Shown here piece after piece: positions 1 to 16,266 of a DNA stretch of 64,000 nucleotides; within the stretch, counting starts at the first letter, position 1, and every line of letters starts with the position of its first letter. The stretch spans positions 1-64,000 of the forward strand of contig JAMLIT010000018.1 of NCBI GenBank assembly GCA_023954035.1, read 5' to 3'. A model generated the notes under the pieces. That model was not told the DNA's origin. It did not search any database and saw only the letters and a program-made list of their open reading frames with translations. Source of the DNA: Burkholderiaceae bacterium (lineage in GTDB: Bacteria > Pseudomonadota > Gammaproteobacteria > Burkholderiales > Burkholderiaceae_C). The position numbers were made by a program, and so were the translations under genes.

Positions 1-831
1 AACTCCATTGCCATTGGCAAGGTGCTCTGCGAGAGCCCCATCGTGCGCCACCTGAGCTTTACCGGCTCCACCGAAGTCGGCCGCATCCTGATGGCGCAGA
101 GTGCGCCCACGGTGAAGAAAATGTCGCTGGAACTGGGCGGCAACGCCCCGTTCATCGTCTTTGACGATGCGGATATCGACAGCGCCGTCGAAGGCGCCTT
201 TGCCAGCAAGTACCGCAACGCCGGCCAGACCTGCGTCTGCTCCAACCGCTTCTACGTGCAAAGCGGGGTCTACGACGAATTCGTCAAGAAGTTCGCCGCC
301 AAGGTGGCCACGGCCAAAGTGGGCAATGGCTTTGAGGACGGGGTGAACCAGGGCCCGCTGATCGAAGAAGCCGCATTAGTCAAGGTGCAGCGCCATGTAG
401 ACGACGCCCTTGCCAAGGGCGGCAAGGTGCTCACGGGCGGCAAGCGCCTCAAGACGCTGGGCTCAGGCCAGTTCTTCGAGCCCACCGTCATCTCCAATGC
501 CAGCGCCGACATGCTCTGCGCCACCGAAGAGACCTTTGGCCCCTTCGCCCCGGTGTTCAAGTTCGAGACCGAGCAAGAAGCCATTGACGCGGCCAACAAC
601 ACCGAGTTTGGCTTGGCCAGCTACTTCTACAGCCGCGACATCGGCCGCATCTTCCGCGTGGGCGAGGCGCTGGAGTACGGCATGGTGGGTGTCAACGTCG
701 GCATCCTGGCGACCGAGCATGTGCCGTTTGGCGGCGTCAAACAGTCAGGCCTGGGGCGCGAGGGTTCGCACCACGGCATGGACGACTATGTGGAGATCAA
801 GTACCTGTGCCTGGGGGATATCCAGCAGTAG
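1..831 (+). CDS. gabD: NAD(P)-dependent succinate-semialdehyde dehydrogenase, C-terminal part
   Basis: The reading frame is open from base 1, so the gene begins upstream of the window and about 277 C-terminal residues are visible. Family knowledge: the enzyme oxidises succinate semialdehyde to succinate in the cytoplasm, the last step of the GABA shunt. Visible marks are FTGSTEVGR (cofactor-binding region), ELGGNAPF with the general-base Glu, GQTCVCSNR with the catalytic Cys, and a late EETFGPFAPV segment, all in aldehyde dehydrogenase order. The second Cys two residues after the nucleophile is common in this family. The gene is followed by a dispersed repeat and then tRNA-Gly. Another aldehyde dehydrogenase specificity is possible, but the sequence reads most like GabD. 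Confidence 0.88.
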   Translation, partial: NSIAIGKVLCESPIVRHLSFTGSTEVGRILMAQSAPTVKKMSLELGGNAPFIVFDDADIDSAVEGAFASKYRNAGQTCVCSNRFYVQSGVYDEFVKKFAAKVATAKVGNGFEDGVNQGPLIEEAALVKVQRHVDDALAKGGKVLTGGKRLKTLGSGQFFEPTVISNASADMLCATEETFGPFAPVFKFETEQEAIDAANNTEFGLASYFYSRDIGRIFRVGEALEYGMVGVNVGILATEHVPFGGVKQSGLGREGSHHGMDDYVEIKYLCLGDIQQ

Positions 832-858
832 GGCCCGCGGGCGGCTATCGGGCAGGAA

Positions 859-924
859 ACTACTGTTTTGATAGCTTCTTGCGCTTGGTGGGTAAGCGCT
901 GGAGGCTCATTTCTCTTGAAATTT
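859..924 (+). repeat. Dispersed ATAAGCGC repeat, copy 1
   Basis: First copy of a 60-70 bp repeat scattered through the window. The recognisable order is ATAGCTTCTT, then GCGCTT...AAGCGCT, then GGAGGC and a T-rich tail. The core can fold as a short hairpin. It lies just after gabD, between that gene and the tRNA. Confidence 0.75.
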
Positions 925-976
925 CGGCACGTATTCAAGACAGAGGGCACACATAGAGTGCGCCTGTGCCGCGCTC

Positions 977-982
977 TATAAT
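977..982 (+). promoter_or_regulatory. Probable -10 box of the tRNA-Gly gene
   Basis: A perfect TATAAT lies 10 bases before the first base of the tRNA, a good distance for initiation just upstream of the mature 5' end. No convincing -35 hexamer stands 16-18 bases further upstream. Confidence 0.55.
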
Positions 983-992
983 CGACGCCTTC

Positions 993-1066
993 GCGGGTGT
1001 AGTTCAATGGTAGAACGGCAGCTTCCCAAGCTTCATACGAGGGTTCGATTCCCTTCACCCGCTCCA
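993..1066 (+). tRNA. glyU: tRNA-Gly (anticodon CCC)
   Basis: A 74-base cloverleaf with encoded CCA. The acceptor stem GCGGGTG pairs with CACCCGC, the D arm contains AGTTCAATGGT, and the T arm is GAGGGTTCGATTCCCTT. The anticodon loop TTCCCAA gives CCC. The anticodon stem has an apparent C-T mismatch at its second pair. The last 23 bases recur exactly at 3448-3470, marking this gene as the integration site of the adjacent island. The tRNA itself is left intact by the insertion. Confidence 0.93.
1044..1066 (+). repeat. Left direct repeat (attL-like, tRNA-Gly 3' end)
   Basis: The T-arm 3' half, acceptor strand and CCA of tRNA-Gly. The 23 bases, starting TTCGATTCCC and ending CCGCTCCA, are identical to 3448-3470. 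Confidence 0.85.
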
Positions 1067-1158
1067 AGAAGGCCACATTTGCTGGGGTTGTAGCAAGGTT
1101 AGGAGGCTTTACCCTACTACCGACCCTATTTCGCGACAGCACTGGATACCCCGCACGC

Positions 1159-1899
1159 TTAGGCCTCCTTCGGACGCTGGGCCTTCGCCGGGACCTTCGG
1201 CACAATTTTCATCCGCTTCCCCCCGTCGTCGGCGCGAAACCATTGCGCTGCCGTCCTGAAATCGTCCGTCCAGAATTCGCCCGGCTCCATCGTGACGGGC
1301 TGAAGGGTGGCCATCTCGCCACCCTGCTTGCCCAGGAGTAGCCACCGCCCAAGGGTGTACATGTAGCGGTCCCACTTCCCCGTTGAAGGCTGCATGGATA
1401 CCGCCAGGATGTCGAACTCGCCATAGCGATAAGGGCGGGTCTTGTTCTCATCGCCATCAGTTCCGGTGCGAGTCTTCTGCGTCTCGGTCATGAACACCGC
1501 GGAGGCGAAACCGAACCGTCCGCCGGGCCTGACGACGGGTGCGCCTCGCGCGCTACGTTGTAATTTTACTTGCACCGTAACCGGCCCCGCGTCATCGGAC
1601 AACTTGTAGTCATATGCGAAGTTGCCTTCTGGCGTCACGTCGCGCCATCCGTGCAGAGCGACCTCAGGGACAACGAAGGTCCGGAAGGCCGCATCAGCGA
1701 TCACACCCCGCAACATCCGCCGCGTCAGTTCTGGGGCTCGGTGGACAGCCTCCAGGATCATCTCCGCCGGTGCACCGATAACGGCCTCAAACTCGTGAAT
1801 CTGATGCACAGCGCGCAGCTCGCGGAACAGCACCGCCTGTTCCTCGGGCGAGCACCGCGCCAACAGTTCGCGAATCGTCACCAGCCCTGCGTTACTCAT
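1159..1899 (-). CDS. Putative type II restriction endonuclease
   Basis: 246 residues if started at the ATG at 1899, which overlaps the stop of the upstream HTH gene by 8 bases (translational coupling); a longer open frame to 1980 would run through that gene. I do not recognise a named family. Suggestive of a PD-(D/E)xK-type nuclease are Asp97 (AYDYKL) followed by VTVQVKLQR with Q110-V-K112, then TQKTR near 141 and a YGEFDILAVSM strand near 159-169. Its strongest support is context: it sits next to a DNA methyltransferase gene, with a small regulator between, inside a bounded island. It would cut DNA left unmethylated by the partner enzyme. A non-nuclease function cannot be excluded. Confidence 0.55.
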   Translation of the reverse strand: MSNAGLVTIRELLARCSPEEQAVLFRELRAVHQIHEFEAVIGAPAEMILEAVHRAPELTRRMLRGVIADAAFRTFVVPEVALHGWRDVTPEGNFAYDYKLSDDAGPVTVQVKLQRSARGAPVVRPGGRFGFASAVFMTETQKTRTGTDGDENKTRPYRYGEFDILAVSMQPSTGKWDRYMYTLGRWLLLGKQGGEMATLQPVTMEPGEFWTDDFRTAAQWFRADDGGKRMKIVPKVPAKAQRPKEA

Positions 1900-2125
1900 G
1901 GCTCGCCCCTTTGGGCCTGCCCGGGGGATTGGGCTCGAAAGCGAGCACATCGACACGTGAGACGAAGCTGCGCCCGCCAACTTCTAATGTCCGAAGTCGG
2001 CCATTCAAGACAAGCTTGGAAATGGCTTGGCGAGAGACGTTCCGCAGGCGCGCAGCCTCCGCCTGACTCACCCATTCGGCAGGGTCAATAGGAGCATTTT
2101 TCAAATTGATTGACGTTGTCAACAT
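1892..2125 (-). CDS. Small helix-turn-helix protein, candidate R-M controller
   Basis: 77 residues. A MerR/excisionase-like helix-turn-helix is visible at about 19-42 (WVSQAEAARLRNVSRQAISK), followed by a short wing (LRTLEVGGRSFVSRVDV). It precedes and overlaps the putative nuclease gene by 8 bases and is divergent from the methyltransferase gene. This is the place taken by controller (C) proteins in PvuII-type systems, but those are Xre-family while this one looks like an HTH_17/MerR-type domain. The 13-bp palindrome TTGACGTTGTCAA lies over its codons 2-5 and the putative methyltransferase promoter, so autoregulation is plausible. A GTG at codon 19 is an alternative start. It could instead be a relic excisionase. 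Confidence 0.6.
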   Translation of the reverse strand: MLTTSINLKNAPIDPAEWVSQAEAARLRNVSRQAISKLVLNGRLRTLEVGGRSFVSRVDVLAFEPNPPGRPKGASHE

Positions 2126-2140
2126 ATTTCTTGGTACACT
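2110..2140 (+). promoter_or_regulatory. Candidate methyltransferase promoter and controller operator
   Basis: TTGACG at 2110-2115 and TACACT at 2135-2140 are separated by 19 bases, a loose sigma-70 match reading toward the methyltransferase. The -35 lies inside the perfect inverted repeat TTGAC-GTT-GTCAA (2110-2122). A protein bound there would cover both this promoter and the start of the divergent HTH gene. Function is inferred. Confidence 0.4.
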
Positions 2141-2180
2141 ATGGAGACTGCATGCTAGCAGTGGCTACCGAGTGCCCTGA

Positions 2181-3155
2181 ATGACCATGATCGTTGACGC
2201 TCCCCAACCCAGCCTTTTCACGACTGACCGAACGCACCCGAAGGAGCTGATGCGGGACGTTGAGCCGTTCTATGAAACTTCGGTTGGCGCTGCTTATTTG
2301 GGTGACTCCCGCGAGTTGCTCAAGGCGTTGCCCGATAGCTCCGTGAATCTCGCGTTCACGTCACCGCCCTATGCGTTGCACTTCAAGAAGGAATACGGCA
2401 ACGTCAGCAAGGCCGACTACGTGGAGTGGTTCTTGCCGTTTGCTCGGGAGATATTCCGCGTGCTGGCCGATGACGGGAGCTTCGTGCTCAACATTGGCGG
2501 CAGCTGGAATCCAGGCACGCCGACCCGCTCTCTGTATCACTACAAGCTAATGATCGCGCTGGTCGAGGAACTCGGCTTCCATCTCGCACAGGAGTGCTAT
2601 TGGTACAACCCGGCGAAGATGCCGGTCCCGGCAGAGTGGGTAACGGTTCGCCGCGTCCGCATCAAGGATTCCGTCGAGCACGTGTGGTGGTTGTCCAAGA
2701 CGCCGTTTCCCAAGGCCGACAACCGCAGAGTGCTGAGACCCTACAGCGCGGACATGCTTCGTCTGGCAAAGAAGGGCGTGAAGGCGGCGGTGCGCCCGTC
2801 GGGCCACAACATCACGTCATCATTTGACAAGATTGAATCAGGCGGGTCCATCCCGTCCAACGTCCTGGAAGACCAGATTGCGAATGAGATGTTGATCGCA
2901 GGGAACAACTCGGCCAACGATCCTTACACGATGCGTTGCAAGGAGGCAGGCATCAAAATTCACCCCGCGCGTTTCCCATCTGCCCTGCCCGAGTTCTTCA
3001 TAAAGCTGTTGACCGATGAGGGGGACCTCGTGGTCGATCCGTTCACGGGCTCGAACACTGCCGGGATGATCGCGGAACGTCTAGGCCGGCGCTGGGTCGG
3101 AATGGAGTTGTTGGAGGAGTACCTGGAAGCAAGCCAGTTCCGGTTCAGCGCGTAG
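2181..3155 (+). CDS. Site-specific DNA methyltransferase, beta class (M.PvuII-like)
   Basis: 324 residues. The catalytic motif IV TSPPY (60-64) comes first and the SAM-binding motif [11 protein letters not shown] (about 286-295) last, the order of beta-class amino-methyltransferases (N4-cytosine or N6-adenine). The run after [16 protein letters not shown], and the later [14 protein letters not shown] and [11 protein letters not shown] resemble, from memory, M.PvuII-type N4-cytosine enzymes. It would protect host DNA from the divergently encoded putative nuclease. ATG 2181 is followed by another ATG at 2187 and neither has a strong ribosome-binding site. Recognition sequence and the exact methylated base cannot be read from the sequence. 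Confidence 0.88.
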
Positions 3156-3447
3156 TGCGTTGAACGCAACCGGGAGAGCGCCGCGTGGCCAACCCGTTCC
3201 ACCTCGGCGGCACGATCAGGAGCGCGCCTGCAGCGTAGCCCAGGGAACGTCGCCTGAATGGCCTCCGACCCCCTGAGCGCCAACGCTCTTGCGTGATGCA
3301 CCAGCGCTGAAGAGGTCGACGGTCAGTCGGTAGCTCCGGACTCGGCCACGCCGAAGGACCGGAAGCCCTTTGCACCAAGAAGCTAGAAAAATTAAGGCTT
3401 ACAGGAAAGTTTTTTTAAACCATACGAGATGATCCGAGACTACCCGT
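3156..3447. other. Non-coding right end of the island
   Basis: About 290 bases between the methyltransferase stop and the right direct repeat. No convincing gene is seen. The last 60 bases become A/T rich (a run of seven T at about 3411-3417). CATACGAG at 3421-3428 also occurs in the tRNA anticodon/T-arm region, perhaps by chance. Confidence 0.5.
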
Positions 3448-3470
3448 TTCGATTCCCTTCACCCGCTCCA
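3448..3470 (+). repeat. Right direct repeat (attR-like copy of tRNA-Gly 3' end)
   Basis: Exact 23-base copy of 1044-1066, ending in CCGCTCCA. It stops six bases before the likely ATG of the next gene. Before insertion the tRNA end would therefore have lain directly upstream of that gene. Confidence 0.85.
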
Positions 3471-3476
3471 GTTTTC

Positions 3477-4658
3477 ATGCACCTGGCCGGCATGGCCCTC
3501 TGCGCACTGCTGGGTTGGAACCACGCTGCCTCGGCGCAACCCATAGGCAGCAAGCCCGTGGTGGCGGTTCTTCAGCCAAGCCCCGTCCCGTTTTCTGAAT
3601 CTTTGCTGCACAGCCTCAAACTCCCGCCGGGCTTTGAGATTTCCGTCTTTGCCCAGGGCCTGGGCAATGTGCGCTGGCTGCAGGTAGCGGCCAATGGCGA
3701 CGTCTATGCCAGCCGCCGCGCGCAGGGCGAGGTCCTTCTGCTGCGCGACACCGATGGCGATGGCGTGGCCGACGTGCAGACAACCGTGGCGCGCATCGGG
3801 CGGGTGCACGGCTTGCTGCTGCACGACAACAAGCTGTTCATGGTGTCGGACCGGGCACTGGACGTGGCCGACGTGCAGAGCGACGGCACATTGTCCAAGC
3901 CCCGGCGCCTGCTGGCCGATCTGCCCGAAGGCGGCAACCACCCGCGCCGCACGCTGGGCATGGGGCCGGACGGCTGGCTGTACCTGAGCGTGGGCTCGAC
4001 CTGCAACAACTGCCTTGAAGCCAACCCCGAGCACGCCACGCTGCTGCGCCTGCGGCCCGATGGCAGCCAGCGCGAAATCTTTGCCCGCGGCCTGCGCAAC
4101 ACCATGGGCTTTGGCTGGCAGCCCAAAACGGGTCAGCTCTACGGCTTTGACCACGGCTCGGACATGCGCGGCGACGACCAGCCGCCCGAAGAGCTCAACG
4201 CCATCGTGCAAGGCAGGCACTACGGCTGGCCCTGGTGCCTGGGCGCGCGGGTGCCCGACCCGGTGCAGCCGCAAGACCCGCCGGGCACCAGCAAAAAAGA
4301 CTTTTGCCCCGGCACCGAGGCCCCCGCCGCCACGACCACCGCCCATTCAGCGCCGATTGGCTTTGTGTTCTACACCGGCACGCAGTTTCCCAAGGACTAC
4401 CAGGGCGACGGCTTTGTCGCCATGCGCGGCTCCTGGAACCGCTCCAGGCCCAGCGGCTACCGGGTGCTGCGCGTGCGCTTTGGCGCCGATGGCAAGCCCA
4501 TGGGCATGCAAGACTTTGTCACCGGCTGGCTGCTGGACACCCAGCCGCCCACGCAGTTCGGCCGCATCGCCGGCCTCGCCGTGGCGCAGGACGGCTCACT
4601 GTTGATAGCCGAAGACCAGAACGGCGTGATTTACCGCGTGCGCTATACCGGCCGCTGA
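3477..4658 (+). CDS. Sorbosone/glucose dehydrogenase-like PQQ beta-propeller protein
   Basis: About 393 residues from ATG 3477. An in-frame ATG at 3429 would place the tRNA-derived repeat inside the protein, so 3477 is preferred although it lacks a clear ribosome-binding site. The N-terminus (MHLAGMALCALLGWNHAASA) looks like a signal peptide, implying periplasmic location. The body has blade motifs of the GSDH/sorbosone dehydrogenase family: FEISVFAQGLGNVRWL, LRDTDGDGVAD, NHPRRTLGMGPDGWLYLSVG, ARGLRNTMGFGWQP, and a late GDGFVAMRGSWNRS. Members oxidise aldoses or sorbosone with PQQ; many are uncharacterised. The substrate is unknown here. The island has separated this gene from its original upstream DNA. 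Confidence 0.8.
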   Translation: MHLAGMALCALLGWNHAASAQPIGSKPVVAVLQPSPVPFSESLLHSLKLPPGFEISVFAQGLGNVRWLQVAANGDVYASRRAQGEVLLLRDTDGDGVADVQTTVARIGRVHGLLLHDNKLFMVSDRALDVADVQSDGTLSKPRRLLADLPEGGNHPRRTLGMGPDGWLYLSVGSTCNNCLEANPEHATLLRLRPDGSQREIFARGLRNTMGFGWQPKTGQLYGFDHGSDMRGDDQPPEELNAIVQGRHYGWPWCLGARVPDPVQPQDPPGTSKKDFCPGTEAPAATTTAHSAPIGFVFYTGTQFPKDYQGDGFVAMRGSWNRSRPSGYRVLRVRFGADGKPMGMQDFVTGWLLDTQPPTQFGRIAGLAVAQDGSLLIAEDQNGVIYRVRYTGR

Positions 4659-4721
4659 GCGCTTGGCCCGCGTGTCGCCGGCCTGTCAGCGTGCAAAAAG
4701 CTGCGCGAGTACCATGTTGGC

Positions 4722-5480
4722 ATGAGCCGACATCTGACCATCCTCACCGGCGCTTCGCGTGGCATGGGCCTCGCGATGGCGCAGCAACTCCTCCAACCCA
4801 CCGACACCTTGCTGTGCATTTCGCGCGGCGAAGCGCCCGCCTTGCAGGACGCGGCCGACGCTGTCGGTTGCACGCTGCTGCAGTGGCAGCAGGACCTGAC
4901 CGACGGCGCAGGCGCCGCAGCGCGATTGCGCGAATGGCTGCAACGCAAGTCGCTCGACGACTTTGGCAGCGCCACCCTGATCAACAACGCCGGGGTATTG
5001 CCGCGCATTGCCCCCTTGTCGGAGAGCGACGCCGGCGAGCTGACCAAGGCCCTGCGCGTCGGGCTGGAAGCGCCCATGCTGCTTACCAGCGCCTTCCTCG
5101 GAGAAACCGAGCATTGGCTGGTGCCGCGCAAGGTACTGAATATTTCCTCAGGGCTGGGCCGGCGCGCCATGGCGTCGCAGTCGGCGTACTGCGCGGCCAA
5201 GGCGGGCATGGACCACTTCACGCGCTGCGCGGCGCTGGACGAAGCGCAAAAGGCGCACGGCGCAAAGATCTGTTCGCTGGCGCCGGGCGTGATCGACACC
5301 GACATGCAGGTGCAGCTGCGCAGCACCGACCCGGCGCTGTTTCCCGACGCAGAGAACTTCGCTCAGATGAAAACGGCAGGCAGCCTTACCACACCCAGCG
5401 AGGCCGCCGCCCGCGTGCTGGCCTATCTGAAGCGCGAGGACTTCGGCCTGCATCCCGTGGCGGATGTACGCGACGCATGA
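4722..5480 (+). CDS. Short-chain dehydrogenase/reductase
   Basis: 252 residues, normal for the SDR family. TGASRGMG (9-16) binds NAD(P), NNAG (88-91) supports the fold, and Ser142/143, Tyr156 and Lys160 (YCAAK) form the catalytic set. PGVIDTDMQ follows, as is usual. It would reduce or oxidise a small carbonyl/alcohol substrate in the cytoplasm; the substrate cannot be told. The layout resembles sepiapterin-reductase-like or YciK-like SDRs, but I do not assign one. It is encoded alone on the + strand, followed by a dispersed repeat before the thiolase gene. Confidence 0.87.
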   Translation: MSRHLTILTGASRGMGLAMAQQLLQPTDTLLCISRGEAPALQDAADAVGCTLLQWQQDLTDGAGAAARLREWLQRKSLDDFGSATLINNAGVLPRIAPLSESDAGELTKALRVGLEAPMLLTSAFLGETEHWLVPRKVLNISSGLGRRAMASQSAYCAAKAGMDHFTRCAALDEAQKAHGAKICSLAPGVIDTDMQVQLRSTDPALFPDAENFAQMKTAGSLTTPSEAAARVLAYLKREDFGLHPVADVRDA

Positions 5481-5486
5481 TGGATT

Positions 5487-5553
5487 GCTATTAACTTAAT
5501 AGCTTCTTACGTATGCCAGATAAGCGCTAGAGCCCATTTTTACCCTATTTTTG
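5487..5553 (+). repeat. Dispersed ATAAGCGC repeat, copy 2
   Basis: TTAATAGCTTCTTACG, then AGATAAGCGCTAGAGCCC and a T-rich tail. It lies directly upstream of the ribosome-binding site (CAGGAG) of the thiolase gene. Confidence 0.8.
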
Positions 5554-5569
5554 TTACCAGGAGTACCCC

Positions 5570-6754
5570 ATGTCCCGTGAAGTCGTCGTCGTCAGCGCAG
5601 TGCGCACCGCCATTGGTACCTTTGGCGGGAGCCTGAAAGATGTGCCCCCCACCGAGTTGGGCGCGCTGGTTGTGCGTGAGTCGCTCGCGCGCGCCAAGGT
5701 CGAGGGCAAGGACGTGGGCCATGTCGTCTTCGGCCACGTCGTCAACACCGAGCCCAAGGACATGTACCTCTCGCGCGTCGCCGCCATCAACGGTGGCTGC
5801 GGCGAAGGCACGCCGGCGTTCAACGTCAACCGCTTGTGCGGCTCCGGCCTGCAGGCCATCGTCAGCGCCAGCCAGGCCATCCTGCTCGGCGATGCCGACA
5901 TCGCCATTGGCGCCGGCGCCGAGGTCATGAGCCGCGCGCCCTACGCCAGCCTGGCGACACGCTTTGGCGCGCGCATGGGCGACACCAAGATGATCGACAT
6001 GATGGTCGGCGCGCTGCATGACCCGTTCCAGAACATCCACATGGGCGTGACGGCCGAGAACATTGCCGCCAAATGGGGCATCACGCGCGAGGACCAGGAC
6101 AAGCTGGCGGTAGAGAGCCACAACCGCGCCGAGCGCGCCACGCAGAACGGCGTGTTCAAGGACCAGATCGTCCCGGTCACGCTCAAGAGCCGCAAAGGCG
6201 ATGTGCAGTACGCCACCGACGAGCATTTCCGCCCCGGCGCGACCCTGGAAGATTTGGCCAAACTCAAGCCTGTGTTCCTCAAAGAGAACGGCACGGTGAC
6301 CGCCGGCAACGCCTCAGGCATCAACGACGCCGCAGCTGCCGTGGTGCTCATGGAGGCCGGCGCCGCCAAGGCGCGGGGCCTGGCGCCTATGGCGCGCCTG
6401 GTGGCCTATGCGCATGCGGGTGTGGACCCCAAGTACATGGGCATCGGCCCCGTGCCGGCGACGCAACTCGCTCTCAAGCGCGCCGGCCTCACGGCGGCCG
6501 ACCTGGACGTGATCGAGGCCAACGAAGCCTTTGCCGCCCAGGCCTGCGCCGTCTCGCGCGATCTGGGCCTCGACCCGGCCAAGGTCAACCCCAACGGCTC
6601 GGGTATTTCACTGGGCCACCCGATTGGCGCCACCGGCGCGCTGCTTACCGTGAAAGCGGTGTACGAATTGCAGCGCATTCAGGGCCGCTACGCGCTGGTC
6701 ACCATGTGCATCGGCGGCGGCCAGGGGATTGCGGCCATCTTCGAGCGCGTCTAA
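5570..6754 (+). CDS. bktB: Acetyl-CoA acetyltransferase / beta-ketothiolase
   Basis: 394 residues, the usual thiolase length. Condenses two acyl-CoA molecules or cleaves 3-ketoacyl-CoA, feeding polyhydroxyalkanoate synthesis or beta-oxidation. The nucleophilic Cys90 lies in NRLCGSG, His350 in NPNGSGISLGHPIG and Cys380 in MCIGGGQG. GVTAENIA and AGNASGINDAAAAV are further family segments. ATG 5570 is preceded by CCAGGAGTACCCC. It reads closest to the BktB type (accepting C4-C5 substrates) rather than PhaA, but this is recognition by eye and paralogues are numerous in Comamonadaceae. msrA starts immediately after its stop. Confidence 0.9.
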   Translation: MSREVVVVSAVRTAIGTFGGSLKDVPPTELGALVVRESLARAKVEGKDVGHVVFGHVVNTEPKDMYLSRVAAINGGCGEGTPAFNVNRLCGSGLQAIVSASQAILLGDADIAIGAGAEVMSRAPYASLATRFGARMGDTKMIDMMVGALHDPFQNIHMGVTAENIAAKWGITREDQDKLAVESHNRAERATQNGVFKDQIVPVTLKSRKGDVQYATDEHFRPGATLEDLAKLKPVFLKENGTVTAGNASGINDAAAAVVLMEAGAAKARGLAPMARLVAYAHAGVDPKYMGIGPVPATQLALKRAGLTAADLDVIEANEAFAAQACAVSRDLGLDPAKVNPNGSGISLGHPIGATGALLTVKAVYELQRIQGRYALVTMCIGGGQGIAAIFERV

Positions 6755-7486
6755 GTGCCGGCACCGCCGCCCGCCGGCGCCCCACCCGAGAGCCTGCGCG
6801 GCCCGCGCTGGATGGCTGGGCTGGCCCTGCTGGTGGTGCTGGCACTGCTTTATGCGGCCTTTGCCTCCCGCGCCCAGCCGGCGCGCCTGCTGCCGCCGCC
6901 GACGACGGACGCGGCGCCAGCACGTGCGGCCGAGGCGCAGCTGGTATTGGCCGGGGGCTGTTTCTGGGGCGTGCAGGCGGTGTTTCAGCATACGCACGGC
7001 GTGCTGAGCGCCCTGTCTGGCTATGCGGGGGGCGAGGAAGGCGATGCCAATTACCCCGCAGTCAGCTCGGGCCGATCCGGCCATGCCGAAGCGGTGGCGA
7101 TCCGCTACGATCCAGGCGTGATCACGCTCGGGGAGCTTTTGCAGATTTTTTTCTCGGTGGCCCACGATCCGACGGAACAGGACCGCCAGGGCCCGGACCT
7201 CGGTCCCCAGTACCGCTCGGCGGTATTTTTTCAGAACCCGGAGCAGCGCGATGTGGCGCAAGCCTACATTGCGCAACTCGACGCCACGGGCCTGCTGCGC
7301 GGTCCGATTGCGACCGAGGTGACGGCGCTCCAGCGCTTCTATCCGGCCGAGACAGGGCACCAGGACTACGCTACGCGCAACCCGAACACGCTGTATGTCG
7401 CCACCTACGACCGGCCCAAGCTGGAGAACTTCAAAGCCTTGCTGCCCGAGCGCTACCGCGACGAGCCCGTGCTGGTGTTGAAATAG
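6755..7486 (+). CDS. msrA: Peptide-methionine (S)-S-oxide reductase with N-terminal membrane anchor
   Basis: 243 residues from a GTG placed directly after the thiolase stop. Repairs methionine-S-sulfoxide in proteins. The catalytic Cys69 is in GGCFWG, followed by YAGG and SGRSGHAEAV, diagnostic of MsrA. Unlike cytosolic MsrA it has a hydrophobic stretch at about 20-37 (MAGLALLVVLALLYAAFA) and a Pro/Ala linker before the domain, suggesting a periplasm-facing anchored or secreted form. An in-frame ATG at 6812 would start at that segment and is an alternative. A hairpin terminator follows. Confidence 0.92.
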   Translation: MPAPPPAGAPPESLRGPRWMAGLALLVVLALLYAAFASRAQPARLLPPPTTDAAPARAAEAQLVLAGGCFWGVQAVFQHTHGVLSALSGYAGGEEGDANYPAVSSGRSGHAEAVAIRYDPGVITLGELLQIFFSVAHDPTEQDRQGPDLGPQYRSAVFFQNPEQRDVAQAYIAQLDATGLLRGPIATEVTALQRFYPAETGHQDYATRNPNTLYVATYDRPKLENFKALLPERYRDEPVLVLK

Positions 7487-7491
7487 AAAAA

Positions 7492-7517
7492 CGGCGCCAA
7501 AAGCGCCGCTTCTTTTT
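7492..7517. terminator. Intrinsic terminator between convergent msrA and uspA
   Basis: CGGCGC (7492-7497) pairs with GCGCCG (7503-7508) across a CAAAA loop, followed by CTTCTTTTT. It is preceded by AAAAA, so it may also work for the opposing uspA gene. Confidence 0.8.
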
Positions 7518-7534
7518 GGAATCAGCGCGCCGGA

Positions 7535-7972
7535 TCAGCTGCGCACCACCAGGACCGGCACGTGCACCACACCCAGCACGCGCTGCGTGACGCTGCCCAG
7601 CATGAGCTTTTCCAGGCCCCGGCGCCCGTGCGAGCCCATGACGACCAGGTCGGCCCCGGTGTTCTCCAGCGCACGCACAATGCCTTCATGCACTGCGTGG
7701 CCCTCGCCCAAAACCGTCTCCACGGGGACGCCGGCGGCCTGCATGGCACGCTTGGCCGCATCCAGCGCGGTATTGGCCTCTGCGGTGGCGGCGCTGAGGT
7801 ACTGCGACTGGCCATAGGCAAAGTCTGCGCCGACACCGGTGAACGGATACGGGTCGATCACATAGAGCGCCGTCACCATGCTGCCAAAGGCCTTGGCCAG
7901 CTCCGCAGCCTTGGAGACCGCCTGCATTGCCGTGGGGGAGCCGTCGATGGGTACGAGAATGTGCTTGAACAT
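7535..7972 (-). CDS. Universal stress protein, single UspA domain
   Basis: 145 residues from the ATG at 7972, which has AAGGAGG a few bases upstream; a longer frame to 7996 adds eight residues and is less likely. The sequence opens with FKHILVPIDGS and ends with GSHGRRGLEKLMLGSVTQRVL, the G-2x-G-9x-G(S/T) nucleotide-binding signature of ATP-binding Usp proteins. Such proteins help cells survive stress or growth arrest; the exact partner is unknown. It is convergent with msrA and shares its terminator. A second, double-domain Usp lies at 36921-37778. Confidence 0.92.
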   Translation of the reverse strand: MFKHILVPIDGSPTAMQAVSKAAELAKAFGSMVTALYVIDPYPFTGVGADFAYGQSQYLSAATAEANTALDAAKRAMQAAGVPVETVLGEGHAVHEGIVRALENTGADLVVMGSHGRRGLEKLMLGSVTQRVLGVVHVPVLVVRS

Positions 7973-8068
7973 AGTGTCCTCCTTGGTTGAACTCACTCAC
8001 GCACAGTGTGCGCGCCGCGCCCGGACGGCGCCTTGACCGGCATCATAGGCGGGGCCGGCATGCCAGCG

Positions 8069-8902
8069 CTACACCGGCCCGGGCACCGGACCCTGAAATC
8101 CACCGCGCCGCCAGGTCAGAACCAGCGTATCGCGGTAGCCGGCCTGGGCAGACGGAGCGGCAGCGGCAAGCGGCTGGATCGGAGTCGTTTCATGCACCAT
8201 GCGCGCATCGTCGAGCAAGAGGACGGACCAGGGCTCGGTGAGCGTGAAGCGCTGGCCCGCCGGCGATGCGGCCTCAAAAATGCGCGTCTCTGCGCCTTTG
8301 ATGCCCTGGCGCGCGACCAGAAAAACGGCCACCAGGTCGACGCCGTCGCGGTGCGCGCCCTCCGGCGTCGGCCGGCCAATGCCAGACGCGGTATCGATGC
8401 GGAACTGGTGCGCCTCCACGAACCAGCGCTGCGGCTCGCCGCCGGGCGCAAAGACGGCGTCGCACAAGGTACACAGGCGGACCAGCAACGCGCCCCACAC
8501 CGGCTGCGCCAGCGTCGGCGCGGTGATGGGAGCAAACCAGCGCTCGATGCCGCCGTGCAGTGCGTTGTACTCCAGCGGCTGCCAGTGCGCGCGGTGCGCC
8601 ACGGGCGCCCACGCACCGGCCTGCATGTCGAAGCAGCCATGGCGCCGGCTGCGATAGCGGCCGCCGTCGCGCAGGTAGTCGTCCGGCGGCAAATCGTTCC
8701 AGGTCTGCGCCAGCGCCTGCAACTGCCCCGGTGCAGCGCCGATCCAGCGCGCCAGATCGGCGCCGCCCAGCAAGGCAAAGCCCGACTGGCGCAAATGCGC
8801 CGCAGCGTCCTGCGGCGCACTATAGGGCGGGACGAAAAGCGGCGCAGTCGCGGGTGCGGGGGCCGTCACTGCGCGGGCCCTGCGCCAGCGTCTTGCAGCC
8901 AA
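8069..8902 (-). CDS. 2OG-Fe(II) dioxygenase family protein
   Basis: Up to 277 residues; the Arg/Ala-rich first 15 are doubtful and the true start may be further in. The fold and motifs suggest the 2OG-Fe dioxygenase group that includes the free-amino-acid hydroxylases (BsmA/IDO type): an EGAHRDGVDLVAVFL block with the His-x-Asp iron ligands, a distal VHETTPI His, and a YRDTLVLTW Arg expected to bind 2-oxoglutarate. It would hydroxylate an amino acid or similar small molecule in the cytoplasm. No operon partner is visible; a dispersed repeat lies just upstream. Confidence 0.7.
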   Translation of the reverse strand: MAARRWRRARAVTAPAPATAPLFVPPYSAPQDAAAHLRQSGFALLGGADLARWIGAAPGQLQALAQTWNDLPPDDYLRDGGRYRSRRHGCFDMQAGAWAPVAHRAHWQPLEYNALHGGIERWFAPITAPTLAQPVWGALLVRLCTLCDAVFAPGGEPQRWFVEAHQFRIDTASGIGRPTPEGAHRDGVDLVAVFLVARQGIKGAETRIFEAASPAGQRFTLTEPWSVLLLDDARMVHETTPIQPLAAAAPSAQAGYRDTLVLTWRRGGFQGPVPGPV

Positions 8903-8910
8903 ACAATTCT

Positions 8911-8969
8911 AAGTAAAAATGGCATCTAGCGCTTATAAATATTGCGTTTTAAGCTACAGTTTTAGTAGC
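8911..8969 (-). repeat. Dispersed ATAAGCGC repeat, copy 3
   Basis: Reads on the - strand as CTACTAAAACTGTAGCTT, then TTATAAGCGCTAGATGCC and T-rich DNA. It overlaps the 3' end of the GGDEF-EAL gene and supplies its stop codon and the last few codons. Confidence 0.75.
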
Positions 8970-11257
8970 GAAATATCGTCATTCAAGAGTGAAAATCTTT
9001 CCAGCATTTCGGCCATTGGTGCCGGACGATGGAACAAATACCCTTGCCAGGCGTGGCAACCGAGTTCGGCCAGCATTGCGCGCTGCTCCTCGGTTTCCAC
9101 CCCTTCGGCGATGACGCGCAAGTCCATGCTGTGGGCCAGAGAGACGATGGTGCGCGCAATGGCCGCATCGTTCGCATTGGCAAGAATGTCACGCACAAAG
9201 CTTTGGTCGATCTTGACCTGGTCGAGCGGCAGACGCTTCAAATACGACAGGCTCGAATACCCCGTGCCGAAGTCGTCGAGCGAGAAGCGCACGCCGTGGG
9301 AACGCACCTGCGTCATGCGCTCGATGGCACCTTCCGCGTCGTCCAGCAGCAGCGACTCGGTCAATTCGAGCTTCAGGCGCGCCGGATTGGCGCCGGTTTC
9401 CTGCAGCACCGCCAGGAGTTCATCGACAAAGCCCACGTGCCGAAACTGCCGCGCACTGACATTGACTGCCATGGTGAGTCCCTCGGTGCGCGGATCGCTC
9501 GCCCAGGCCGCCAGTTCGGCGCAAGCCGCGCGCAAAATCCAGGCGCCCAGCGGCACGATGAGGCCGGTGCTTTCGGCAATGCCGATGAAGTCGCTGGGAT
9601 AAATCCAGCCCCGCGCGGGGTGCTGCCAGCGCACCAGGGCTTCCGCGCCCACCAGCTTGCCTCCACACTCCACCTGCGCCTGGTAGTGCAGCACGAACTG
9701 CTGCTGCTCCAGCGCCTGGCGCATGTCGGCTTCGAGCGCCGTGCGCTTGGCCACGGCGATCTGGGTGCGCAAGTCAAAGAAGCACATGGTGTTGCGCCCC
9801 TGTGCCTTGGCCTCGTACATGGCCAGATCACCGCGTTTGAGCAATTCCTCCACGCTGCCAGCGGCGTCGACGTACAGGGCGATCCCAACGCTGCAGGAGG
9901 TGTGGTGCACGCGCCCGTCCAGCACGAACACCTTGCCCAGCATGTCGAGCACCGTGCGGGCCACGGCCTCGGCCTGCACCGCGGCCTGGGCGCGGTCGGC
10001 GCTCAGGCCTTCGAGCAGCATCACGAACTCGTCCCCGCCCAGGCGGGCGACGGTGTCGCTGCGGCGCCCGCACTGCTCGAGGCGCTCGGCCACCTGCCGA
10101 AGCAGCTCGTCGCCGGTATCGTGGCCCAGGGTGTCGTTGAGGTCCTTGAAGTTGTCGAGGTCCACCACCAGCAAGGCGCCGCCCAGGCCTCCGATCTGGC
10201 TGTTGGCAAGGCTGCGCTGCAAGCGGTCCGACATCAGCCGCCGGTTGGGCAGGCCGGTCAGCGCGTCGTAATAGGCCAGCGTCCGGATTTCGTCCTCGGC
10301 CGCCTTGCGCTCGGAAATATCGGTCTGCGTGCTGACGTAGTGCGTAATCTCCCCCGCCGCCGATCGCACCTGGGCAATGTGAACCCAGGCGGGGTAAACC
10401 TCGCCACCTTTGCGCTGCAGCCACATTTCTCCGGCCCAGTGGCCCTTCTCGGCCACCGTATTCCAGACCTCGGCGTAAAAAGTCGCGTCGTTGCGCCCCG
10501 ATTGCAGACTGCGCACATCCGCGCCCAGCAGTTCGCCATCGGCATACCCCGTCAGGCGCAGCAGCGCTCCGTTGACCCGCAGAATGCGCCGCTCGGGGTC
10601 CGCGATCAGCATGCCTTCGTGGGATTCGAAAATCGTCGCCGCCAGGCGCAGTGCGTCGTCGGCGCGCCGCAGTGCGGTGATGTCTGTGCTGTAGCCGCAG
10701 ATCCCCATGACAGCGCCTGAACCGTCGAACAGAGGCACCTTGACGGCAAGAAACACGCGCACTTCCGAGCCGCTCTTGCGAACCACGGTTTCTTCCACTT
10801 CCAGGCGCTCGCGAGACGCGAACACCTTGCGGTCGTTGGCAAGCAAGGCTTGCGCAGTGGCGTCGTCGAAAAACGCTGCGTCCTGCTGGCCGACAATCTC
10901 GGCCGCGGACCAACCAATCCAATCGGCTGCCTGCTTGTTGACGTATTGGTAGCGGCCTTCGGTGTCCTTGATGAATACCAGCGCCCCAGCGTTGTCGAGA
11001 ATGGCCGAGAGCTTTTGTTCGCTGGCCCGCACATGCTGCGTGCGCTCAGCCACCTTGCGGCGCAGCACCATCACGTGCAGCAGCAACATCAGGCAAAACA
11101 GGCCCAGCGTGAGCAGACCCCAAAGCAGCCACGGCAGCTCGAGAAATTCGACCCAGGGGGTCGGCTGCGCCTGCCCTGCGGAGCGCTGCGCAAGGGCCCG
11201 GGGCAGCAGTCCGAACGCGATGAAACCCCGCGCTGCTGAGAGCAGCGACGAACGCAT
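8954..11257 (-). CDS. PAS-GGDEF-EAL cyclic-di-GMP signalling protein
   Basis: About 767 residues from the ATG at 11257; the frame is open to a GTG at 11392, and no start has a good ribosome-binding site. Order: N-terminal hydrophobic region with a membrane helix (LPWLLWGLLTLGLFCLMLLL), two PAS domains (ILDNAGALVFIKDTEGRYQY and a second ending STQTDISERKAAE), a GGDEF domain with intact RLGGDEF (about residue 405), and an EAL domain with GAEALVRW (about 539), ELTESLLLDD and LDDFGTGYSSL. Both catalytic signatures look intact, so it may make or break c-di-GMP. Its final residues lie in a dispersed repeat. A PilZ gene is divergent. Confidence 0.92.
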   Translation of the reverse strand: MRSSLLSAARGFIAFGLLPRALAQRSAGQAQPTPWVEFLELPWLLWGLLTLGLFCLMLLLHVMVLRRKVAERTQHVRASEQKLSAILDNAGALVFIKDTEGRYQYVNKQAADWIGWSAAEIVGQQDAAFFDDATAQALLANDRKVFASRERLEVEETVVRKSGSEVRVFLAVKVPLFDGSGAVMGICGYSTDITALRRADDALRLAATIFESHEGMLIADPERRILRVNGALLRLTGYADGELLGADVRSLQSGRNDATFYAEVWNTVAEKGHWAGEMWLQRKGGEVYPAWVHIAQVRSAAGEITHYVSTQTDISERKAAEDEIRTLAYYDALTGLPNRRLMSDRLQRSLANSQIGGLGGALLVVDLDNFKDLNDTLGHDTGDELLRQVAERLEQCGRRSDTVARLGGDEFVMLLEGLSADRAQAAVQAEAVARTVLDMLGKVFVLDGRVHHTSCSVGIALYVDAAGSVEELLKRGDLAMYEAKAQGRNTMCFFDLRTQIAVAKRTALEADMRQALEQQQFVLHYQAQVECGGKLVGAEALVRWQHPARGWIYPSDFIGIAESTGLIVPLGAWILRAACAELAAWASDPRTEGLTMAVNVSARQFRHVGFVDELLAVLQETGANPARLKLELTESLLLDDAEGAIERMTQVRSHGVRFSLDDFGTGYSSLSYLKRLPLDQVKIDQSFVRDILANANDAAIARTIVSLAHSMDLRVIAEGVETEEQRAMLAELGCHAWQGYLFHRPAPMAEMLERFSLLNDDISLLKL

Positions 11258-14652: not shown

Positions 14653-16266
14653 TCACTCCCACTCGATCGTCGCCGGCGGCTTGCTGCTCACGTCGTAGGT
14701 CACCCGGTTGATGCCGCGCACTTCGTTGATGATGCGGCCCGATACCTTTTTGAGCAGTGCATAGGGCAGTTCCGCCCAGTCGGCGGTCATGAAGTCGCTG
14801 GTTTGCACCGCGCGCAGCGCCACCACGTAGTCGTAGGTACGACCATCGCCCATCACACCCACGCTCTTGACAGGCAGGAAAACGGCGAAGGCCTGGCTGG
14901 TCAATTCGTACCATGACTTTCCCGTGGCAGCATCGACGCAGTTGCGCAATTCCTGGATGAAGATCGCGTCCGCCTGGCGCAAGAGATCTGCGTATTCCTT
15001 CTTCACCTCGCCCAGAATCCGCACGCCCAGGCCAGGCCCCGGAAAAGGGTGTCGATAGACCATCTCGGGCGGCAGGCCCAGGGCCACGCCGAGCTCTCGC
15101 ACTTCGTCCTTGAACAAATCGCGCAGGGGTTCCAGCAGCTCGAGCCCGAGCTGCTCGGGCAAGCCGCCCACGTTGTGGTGGCTCTTGATCGTGACGGCTT
15201 TCTTGCTTTTTGCACCGCCCGACTCGATCACGTCGGGGTAGATGGTGCCCTGGGCCAGCCATTTGGCCCCCTTGGCGCCGGCAGTGATGAGCTTCGCTGC
15301 TTCTTGCTTGAACACGGTGACGAACTCGCCGCCCATGATCTTGCGCTTGGCTTCCGGATCGGCCACGCCGGCAAGCTTGCCGAGGAACAGGTCGCTCGCG
15401 TCGACCCGGATCACCTTGGCGTGCAGCTTTCCGACAAACATGTCCATGACCATATCGCCTTCGTTGAGGCGCAGCAGCCCATGGTCGACGAATACGCAAG
15501 TCAACTGATCACCAATGGCGCGGTGAATCAGCGCGGCTGCCACGGATGAATCCACGCCTCCGGAGAGGCCCAGAATGACCTCCTCGTCTCCGACCTGCTC
15601 GCGGATGCGGGCAACCGCTTCGGCTACGTGGTCCCGCATCACCCAATCGGGCGTGGCCTGGCAGATGCCCAACACGAAGCGCTCAAGAATCGCCTTTCCT
15701 TGTTGGGTGTGCGTCACCTCAGGGTGAAACTGGACGGCATAAAACCGCCGCGCTTCGTCGGCCATGCCGGCAATCGGGCAGCTGTCCGTGCTGGCCATCA
15801 GCCTGAAGCCGGGCGGCAGTTCGGTGACCTTGTCGCCGTGGCTCATCCAGACGTTGAGCATGCCGTGCCCGTCTGCCGTCGTAAAGTCGGCGATGTCCTT
15901 GAGCAGCGCGGTGTGCCCGCGCGCGCGCACTGCCGCGAAACCGAATTCGCGCTGATGCCCGCCTTCCACCTTGCCTCCGAGCTGCTGCGCCATGGTCTGC
16001 ATGCCGTAGCAGATGCCCAGCACAGGAACGCCCAGTTCAAACACGGCGCGAGGCGCTTTGTCCGTGGTTTCCTCGTACACGCTGGCGTGGCTTCCGGACA
16101 AGATGACGCCCTTGAGGGTCCCGTCCCGGGCGAACGCGCGCACCCAGTCGTCGCCCACGTCGCAGGGATGCACCTCGCAGTACACATGGGCCTCGCGCAC
16201 ACGGCGTGCAATGAGCTGGGTCACCTGCGAGCCGAAATCGAGGATGAGGATTTTCTGGTGTTGCAT
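14653..16266 (-). CDS. guaA: GMP synthase (glutamine-hydrolysing)
   Basis: 537 residues, normal length. Converts XMP to GMP using glutamine and ATP, the last step of GMP synthesis. N-terminal class I amidotransferase: [18 protein letters not shown], nucleophile Cys in LGICYGMQ, and His/Glu in FHPEVTHT. The ATP-pyrophosphatase P-loop is [11 protein letters not shown] and the C-terminal dimerisation domain ends PATIEWE. guaB lies just upstream on the same strand, separated by a dispersed repeat, so the two are probably cotranscribed for the IMP to GMP branch. Confidence 0.98.

Follow-up and report, generated by a model that had tools for sequence, protein, structure and literature searches.

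An integrase-less restriction-modification island at a tRNA-Gly gene is probably the remnant of a larger satellite-like integrative element

The window analyzed here is a 64,000-nucleotide stretch of a Burkholderiaceae bacterium genome, and near its start a tRNA-Gly(CCC) gene raises the question of how three genes came to lie between two copies of a tRNA end with no integrase among them. The assembly that holds the window is a 3.33-Mb draft in 76 contigs and is 89% complete. ARAGORN makes a single tRNA call within the window, at 993-1066 on the forward strand. The final 23 bp of this gene (1044-1066) recur exactly, as a direct repeat, at 3448-3470, and between the repeats there are three open reading frames, encoding an R-like protein (R), a small helix-turn-helix (HTH) protein, and a DNA methyltransferase (M); on both of these points the sequence-only reading of this DNA was correct. 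That reading had offered two histories for the island: either a larger island had been reduced to its defence cargo, or a minimal cassette had been moved in trans by the integrase of another element. Across the whole assembly, the 23-bp core has only these two exact copies; allowing up to three mismatches adds a sole further site, which has two mismatches and lies at a second tRNA-Gly or tRNA-Gly-like gene (C42). The features are listed here by position, where L094 is a complete related element and L018 and L017 are tRNA-Gly loci of relatives, all described below.

993..1066 (+), tRNA-Gly(CCC), the target gene, intact (ARAGORN)
1044..1066 (+), attL core, the final 23 bp of the tRNA-Gly (exact repeat; an identical core bounds the L094 element)
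1067..1136 (+), attL arm on the tRNA side (53/70 ungapped against L094 starting at 3424, immediately following its attL core)
1159..1899 (-), R-like protein of 246 aa, putative endonuclease (conserved residues; no family match)
1892..2125 (-), small HTH protein of 77 aa, excisionase/HTH_17-like, putative controller (weak domain matches)
2110..2122 (no strand), TTGAC-N3-GTCAA palindrome, putative operator (read by eye from the alignment)
2181..3155 (+), N6_N4_Mtase DNA methyltransferase, M.PvuII-like (PF01555; PDB 1boo)
3206..3246 (+), final stretch similar to the complete element, just 3' of the methyltransferase (L094 5562-5602)
3247..3419 (no strand), stretch of unplaced origin at the deletion scar (no match outside its own genome)
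3420..3447 (+), attR arm, the integrase side of the complete element (24/28 against L094 starting at 15787, immediately preceding its attR core)
3448..3470 (+), attR core, the second 23-bp copy (exact repeat)
3471..4658 (+), right flank, a GSDH-family gene outside the island (PF07995; in L018 and L017 it abuts the tRNA)

The R-HTH-M block is arranged divergently, and its frames are open throughout. The R frame starts at the ATG at 1899 and overlaps the end of the HTH frame by 8 bp. The stretch at 3247-3419 has no long open frame.

The sequence-only reading had proposed that the same tRNA-Gly locus be compared among relatives for empty sites, and an empty allele was indeed found. A match to the tRNA at E <= 0.001 is present in 95 of 100 genomes, the window's own included; many of these matches are to the other tRNA-Gly. 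From the relatives we fetched 20 tRNA-Gly places, among them those of all nine other same-genus genomes with a best match of at least 99% (in one of the nine, the tRNA match spans 67 of the 74 bases). None of the 20 loci matches the island sequence at E <= 1e-3, four of them ending at most 1.6 kb past the tRNA. In genome G018, of the same genus, the order is ALDH, tRNA-Gly, GSDH (locus L018); the tRNA end is joined directly to the GSDH flank, and there is one 23-bp copy. A second copy in a genome without the three genes was one of the patterns that the earlier reading had named as telling against it, the other being relatives that all carry the genes at this locus; the allele in G018 is empty and has no second copy. 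The right junction in G012 (locus L017) is the same as in L018, and its adjoining 1,190 bp are 98.3% identical to the window's flank. The left side in G012 differs from that of the window, and no ALDH gene lies within about 40 kb upstream of the tRNA-Gly; this genome therefore shows the right junction only. In a third relative (L014 of genome G007), a 10.9-kb operon separates the tRNA from the GSDH gene, and the att copy is absent. The remaining fetched tRNA-Gly loci have other neighbours.

A complete relative of the island adjoins the same tRNA-Gly in a Rubrivivax MAG (L094, which is locus L047 fetched more widely). Here the R-HTH-M block lies beside the tRNA and is followed by genes for TerL and a VapE-like primase; the end away from the tRNA carries a tyrosine integrase. 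The integrase carries an Arm-DNA-bind_3 domain, which we take to be a P4-type feature. An exact copy of the 23-bp core stands at each end of the element, 12,414 bp apart from start to start. Both ends of the window island are in register with it: the right arms are identical at 24 of 28 positions and the left arms at 53 of 70, whereas the maxima over 1000 single-letter shuffles were 21 and 38, respectively. As a control, the arms of L095, a complete family member located at a different tRNA, match those of the window at 19 (right) and 38 (left) positions. A further similarity between window 3206-3246 and L094 5562-5602 is weak (78% over 41 bp, E 7e-4). The R and M proteins of this closest complete element are 82% and 90% identical to those of the window.

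Since the arms and the tRNA-side cargo match L094, the window has both ends of the element without the roughly 10 kb between them; relative to an L094-like element, these 10 kb, including the integrase, are missing from the island. We consider it likely that the island is what remains of a satellite-like integrative element of about 12.4 kb that was stripped of its integration and replication genes, and thus that the first of the two histories in the sequence-only reading is the better one; the complete 12.4-kb homologue, the ends in register with it, and the empty site in G018 all argue for it. Under this history, a tyrosine-integrase element would have recombined into the 3' end of the tRNA-Gly(CCC) gene, so that the tRNA was restored and the element's distal end received a 23-bp copy. 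That integration occurred by recombination is shown by the combination of empty site, repeats, and arms. An internal deletion of about 10 kb would then have taken TerL along with the genes for the VapE-like primase and the integrase, as judged from the complete relative; it would run from about 90 bp past the methyltransferase gene to a point 28 bp short of the attR core. The cargo at the tRNA end, the divergent R-HTH-M block, would have stayed.

Some observations count against this history. The deletion is read from a comparison with other genera, not from a two-state polymorphism within one species, and the closest complete element is not the direct parent. Among 199 genomes, with the best four candidates per genome considered, the scar region (3240-3450) matched its own genome alone. 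Since nothing found matches the 173 bp at 3247-3419, a single clean deletion in an L094-like element does not account for the island. The block is also found away from tRNA genes, and the assignments of R and the HTH protein stand on absent and weak family matches, respectively.

The stripped state recurs elsewhere in the family. The R protein was found at 12 loci in genome_contigs and in seven of 399 family genomes (the window's own included; one of the seven is weak and broken). The order R-HTH-M is kept at 11 of the 12 loci, the twelfth (L057) being a partial copy. The MAGs and genomes that carry the block are labelled Hylemonella, Rubrivivax, Rhizobacter, Azoarcus, Accumulibacter, Thiocystis, and Burkholderiales. 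The second complete element, L095 in a Burkholderiales MAG, lies at a tRNA-Ser(GCT) and has the gene order of L094, with identities of 79% for TerL, 52% for VapE, and 41% for the integrase. Beyond its integrase the tRNA end recurs as a 14-bp copy. The bounded elements measure 12.4 kb (L094) and 11.6 kb (L095). Both complete elements lie on MAG contigs. Among the 12 L094 and L095 proteins scanned with Pfam and/or PHROGs, there were no matches to capsid, portal, or tail proteins and none to relaxase or conjugation families.

Two further loci, L049 (genome G463) and L058 (genome G194), have the element's tRNA-side arm and the R-HTH-M block at a tRNA-Ser(CGA). The L049 spacer is identical at 137 of 142 positions to that of L048, which is the contig of L095; its homology to L095 ends at the end of the methyltransferase gene, and the contig continues for only 2.6 kb. 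L058, in a genome assembled as a single contig, retains the arm and the block, followed by the next element gene in truncated form. Its homology breaks inside that gene, near a frame that we take to be transposase-like; the frame first scanned near the break had no Pfam match. In a search for TerL in seven genomes, the two with complete elements (G461 and G462, the positive controls) matched, and no TerL was found at E <= 0.001 in the window's own genome (G000), G194, G463, G018, or G012.

Fourteen genomes bear the block when the window, the 12 loci, and G194 are counted together, one of them with a partial copy. The block adjoins a tRNA in six of the 14, and five of these six share the element arms, two as complete elements and three in stripped form. 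The sixth, L055, adjoins a tRNA-Thr; it has no repeat of at least 12 bp, and its block begins after a terminator-like hairpin behind the tRNA. With this hairpin between tRNA and block and no repeat, L055 was dropped as a candidate att insertion. No tRNA was seen in the fetched flanks, some of them short, of the other eight genomes (seven full copies and the partial one), so the block also sits where no such att site is seen. At L052, the block is near cas1 and cas2 genes. At L011, the integrase adjoins the tRNA instead of standing at the opposite end. At the strict threshold of E <= 1e-120, with the best two candidates per genome, the L094 VapE-like protein had no match in the 399 family genomes, a set that includes no known positive, so this negative carries little weight. 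VapE-like relatives at 15 loci in viral contigs had no L094- or L095-like integrase or TerL at E <= 1e-5. The titles and abstract openings of the papers found name no such element.

The other history in the sequence-only reading was a minimal non-autonomous cassette, in which R-HTH-M with its attL and attR would have been moved in trans by the integrase of related complete elements. In its favour, both exact cores and one arm per side are kept, and the right junction in G012 is empty next to a nearly identical flank, so the arrival looks recent unless G012 lost the block. L094-type integrases in the broad sense are common in the family: at E <= 1e-60 they are present in 86 of its 399 genomes. 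The nearest, in G316, is 66% identical and adjoins a copy of the core with two mismatches, with no tRNA-Gly found in the fetched stretch. Movement in trans within the family is thus possible. However, the exact arm pattern at the tRNA-Gly was found in the window's own genome alone among the 399 family genomes and in no viral contig, and a matching integrase was not found in that genome. There are eight PF00589 integrase-family matches in the assembly, all on contigs other than the window's. Two of the eight have about 28-31% identity to the L094 integrase, whereas the others show no similarity to it at E <= 1e-5; none of the best four of 13 candidates is of the L094 type at E <= 1e-60. An integrase elsewhere in the genome could be missed, since the assembly is 89% complete. 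The suggested search for a resident integrase with a matching 23-bp att site turned up no other exact core copy, and we consider that the island was quite unlikely to have arrived as a cassette moved in trans.

Insertion of R-HTH-M alone, by homologous or illegitimate recombination beside a repeat that is an older, unrelated scar, would suit the eight of 14 genomes in which the block has no tRNA in its fetched flanks. We regard it as very improbable at this locus: the block has an element-specific arm to its left and to its right, each in register with the arms of a complete element that occupies the same tRNA gene, and G018 is without the second repeat and without the block together. An assembly artefact that joined two distant pieces of a complete element would fit a draft of this fragmentation and completeness and a scar with 173 bp of unplaced origin, but it has the slightest chance of all, given that no TerL match and no L094-type integrase were found in the whole assembly and that G194, a single-contig genome, has been stripped in the same way.

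The cargo retained in the proposed remnant is most likely a type II restriction-modification system. The methyltransferase matches PF01555 (E 1e-40) and, over residues 28-322, M.PvuII (PDB 1boo, E 1.6e-96); PADLOC labels it a type II methyltransferase (E 7.6e-111), and its TSPPY motif is invariant in nine of nine aligned copies. The R protein has no match in Pfam, NCBIfam, or PDB, a PDB profile search included, and in PADLOC has a weak match to JetB only (E 0.0097). It is 67-81% identical to 11 homologues, and in the alignment of the 12 copies D97, Q110, and K112 are invariant. This D..Q-x-K pattern resembles the PD-(D/E)xK variant with QxK; the nuclease role of R is putative. Its predicted structure is weak (pLDDT 62.8), with a best Foldseek match at E 0.065 and none at E <= 0.001. 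The methyltransferase named in the earlier reading is confirmed, while its nuclease label has no family support. No R homologue was found in plasmids or in viral contigs. A single phage record, from a Dolichospermum phage (a cyanophage), has a 39% identical R homologue that adjoins a 68% identical methyltransferase, and indicates that the R and M pair holds together at a distance.

The HTH protein has matches to PF12728 (E 1.2e-4) and TIGR01764 (E 3.1e-4), neither of which reaches the curated cut-off. The TTGAC-N3-GTCAA palindrome lies at the start of its frame, close to a -35-like box for the methyltransferase, and by eye has perfect 5-bp arms in eight of 12 loci; the HTH protein may act there, between the divergent gene starts. 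For R and M, dN was 0.05-0.22 against a dS of 0.87-2.8, the latter near saturation, in seven comparisons with the window (R against L046, L047, L048, and L054; M against L046, L047, and L054), and by these values the R-M family is under purifying selection. The PvuII site is CAGCTG. M would protect PvuII-like sites, R would cut unmodified DNA, and the HTH protein would tune the pair. The block may have been retained for host defence, or else its loss may be harmful. The island has no integrase of its own for excision; with the att ends kept, a related integrase could in principle excise the island.

The most interesting part is the repeated convergence on R-HTH-M. A wider idea, which we put forward tentatively and think rather doubtful, is that in a family of tRNA-targeting satellites with R-HTH-M at the tRNA end, erosion repeatedly converges on a tRNA plus R-M because loss of R-M is harmful, and that remnants with both att ends, this one included, are mini-islands that could still be moved by the integrases of sister elements. 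If true, there would be an addiction-driven route from an autonomous satellite to a non-autonomous defence cassette. For the window itself, the history of an integrase-less island can be traced through an empty site, a complete relative, and further relatives in stripped form, and its proposed course shows how satellite-borne defence genes can turn into resident chromosomal genes at tRNA sites. The locus also draws attention to a compact R-HTH-M module and to a family of R proteins that matches nothing in the libraries searched.

Among known systems, the cargo is close to PvuII restriction-modification, with homology to M.PvuII along most of the island methyltransferase. R.PvuII structures are present in the PDB, and the PvuII controller is an XRE-type HTH protein; in contrast, the island R matches no PDB chain, and the regulator is HTH_17-like. 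P4-like phage satellites, in the extract cited, carry defence cargo at hotspots (PMC9122126). As far as that extract goes, the complete relatives resemble them in their arm-binding integrase, replication protein, small size, defence cargo of about 2 kb, and tRNA integration. They differ in carrying TerL, and the window island differs in having no integrase or replication genes. The phage-satellite genes (integrase, VapE-like, and TerL) are absent from the island, TerL was not found genome-wide, and the parent of the island looks like a phage satellite when judged by the genes of its relatives. CALINs and MITEs are described in the cited excerpt as 'hitchers' that have lost their recombinase, and such a loss combined with rescue in trans is an established path (PMC11389934); like the island, they keep their sites, have lost the enzyme, and might be rescued in trans, but they belong to other recombination systems. 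Defence islands of unclear mobility also occur at integration hotspots, tRNA genes included, according to the part of the source available (PMC10121019).

The island works in the manner of CIMEs (cis-mobilizable elements), which in the excerpts cited have lost their integration and transfer genes and kept attL and attR (PMC5704250, PMC7563491), and which measure 1.2-13 kb in the classical cases (PMC7563491). To the extent of those excerpts, the island is similar in keeping attL and attR with genes deleted, in being small with cargo, and in lying at the 3' end of a gene. Its att sites are retained as exact 23-bp cores with arms in register with a complete element, and its three open reading frames include no recombination gene, the HTH protein having a weak excisionase-domain match. 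CIMEs by definition derive from ICEs or IMEs, as these sources put it (PMC5704250, PMC7563491), whereas genes for terminase and a VapE-like protein are present in the complete relatives of the island, and the proteins scanned include no conjugation family. The window element is probably a decayed integrative element, a known kind, and such decay is well known.

Related genomes carry other contents at the same tRNA-Gly target. At L011 (genome G002), an integrase gene directly adjoins tRNA-Gly(CCC), and a second copy of the 23-bp core, with 2 mismatches, lies ~10.3 kb downstream; this is a different island in the same tRNA-Gly(CCC) target. At L014 (genome G007), a 10.9-kb operon (about 350-11200) was observed between the same tRNA and the GSDH-family gene, without an att copy. 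This operon encodes substrate-binding proteins, transporters, and a carbon-nitrogen hydrolase.

The match to the tRNA gene itself is incomplete or weaker in some relatives. At L016 (genome G010), the match to tRNA-Gly(CCC) stops at base 67 of 74 (around 3000-3070 of the tRNA-oriented stretch), and the gene is without a normal 3' end; the shortened copy is perhaps a scar of imprecise excision. The best match to tRNA-Gly(CCC) in several genomes of the same genus (G001, G004, and G006) is only about 82% identical, which suggests that this gene may be dispensable within the genus.

The right flank of the island is formed by the following gene.

Window 3471-4658: GSDH-family gene

The island keeps this gene and the tRNA apart in the window. 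In the empty state, the predicted GSDH-family start apparently lies no more than about 20 bp from the 3' end of the tRNA; given this proximity, the two may share a transcript.

The block of R-like, HTH, and methyltransferase genes also occurs at another kind of site: at L052 (57-1366 and 4016-6037), cas1 and cas2 genes were seen near the same block. A palindrome lies where the HTH and methyltransferase genes diverge.

Window 2110-2122: TTGAC-N3-GTCAA palindrome, at the beginning of the HTH reading frame, with a -35-like box for the methyltransferase gene nearby

When the loci containing the block were compared by eye, the palindrome arms were perfect in eight of twelve. The usual controllers in restriction-modification systems are XRE-type; the putative HTH_17-type controller of this block would differ from them.
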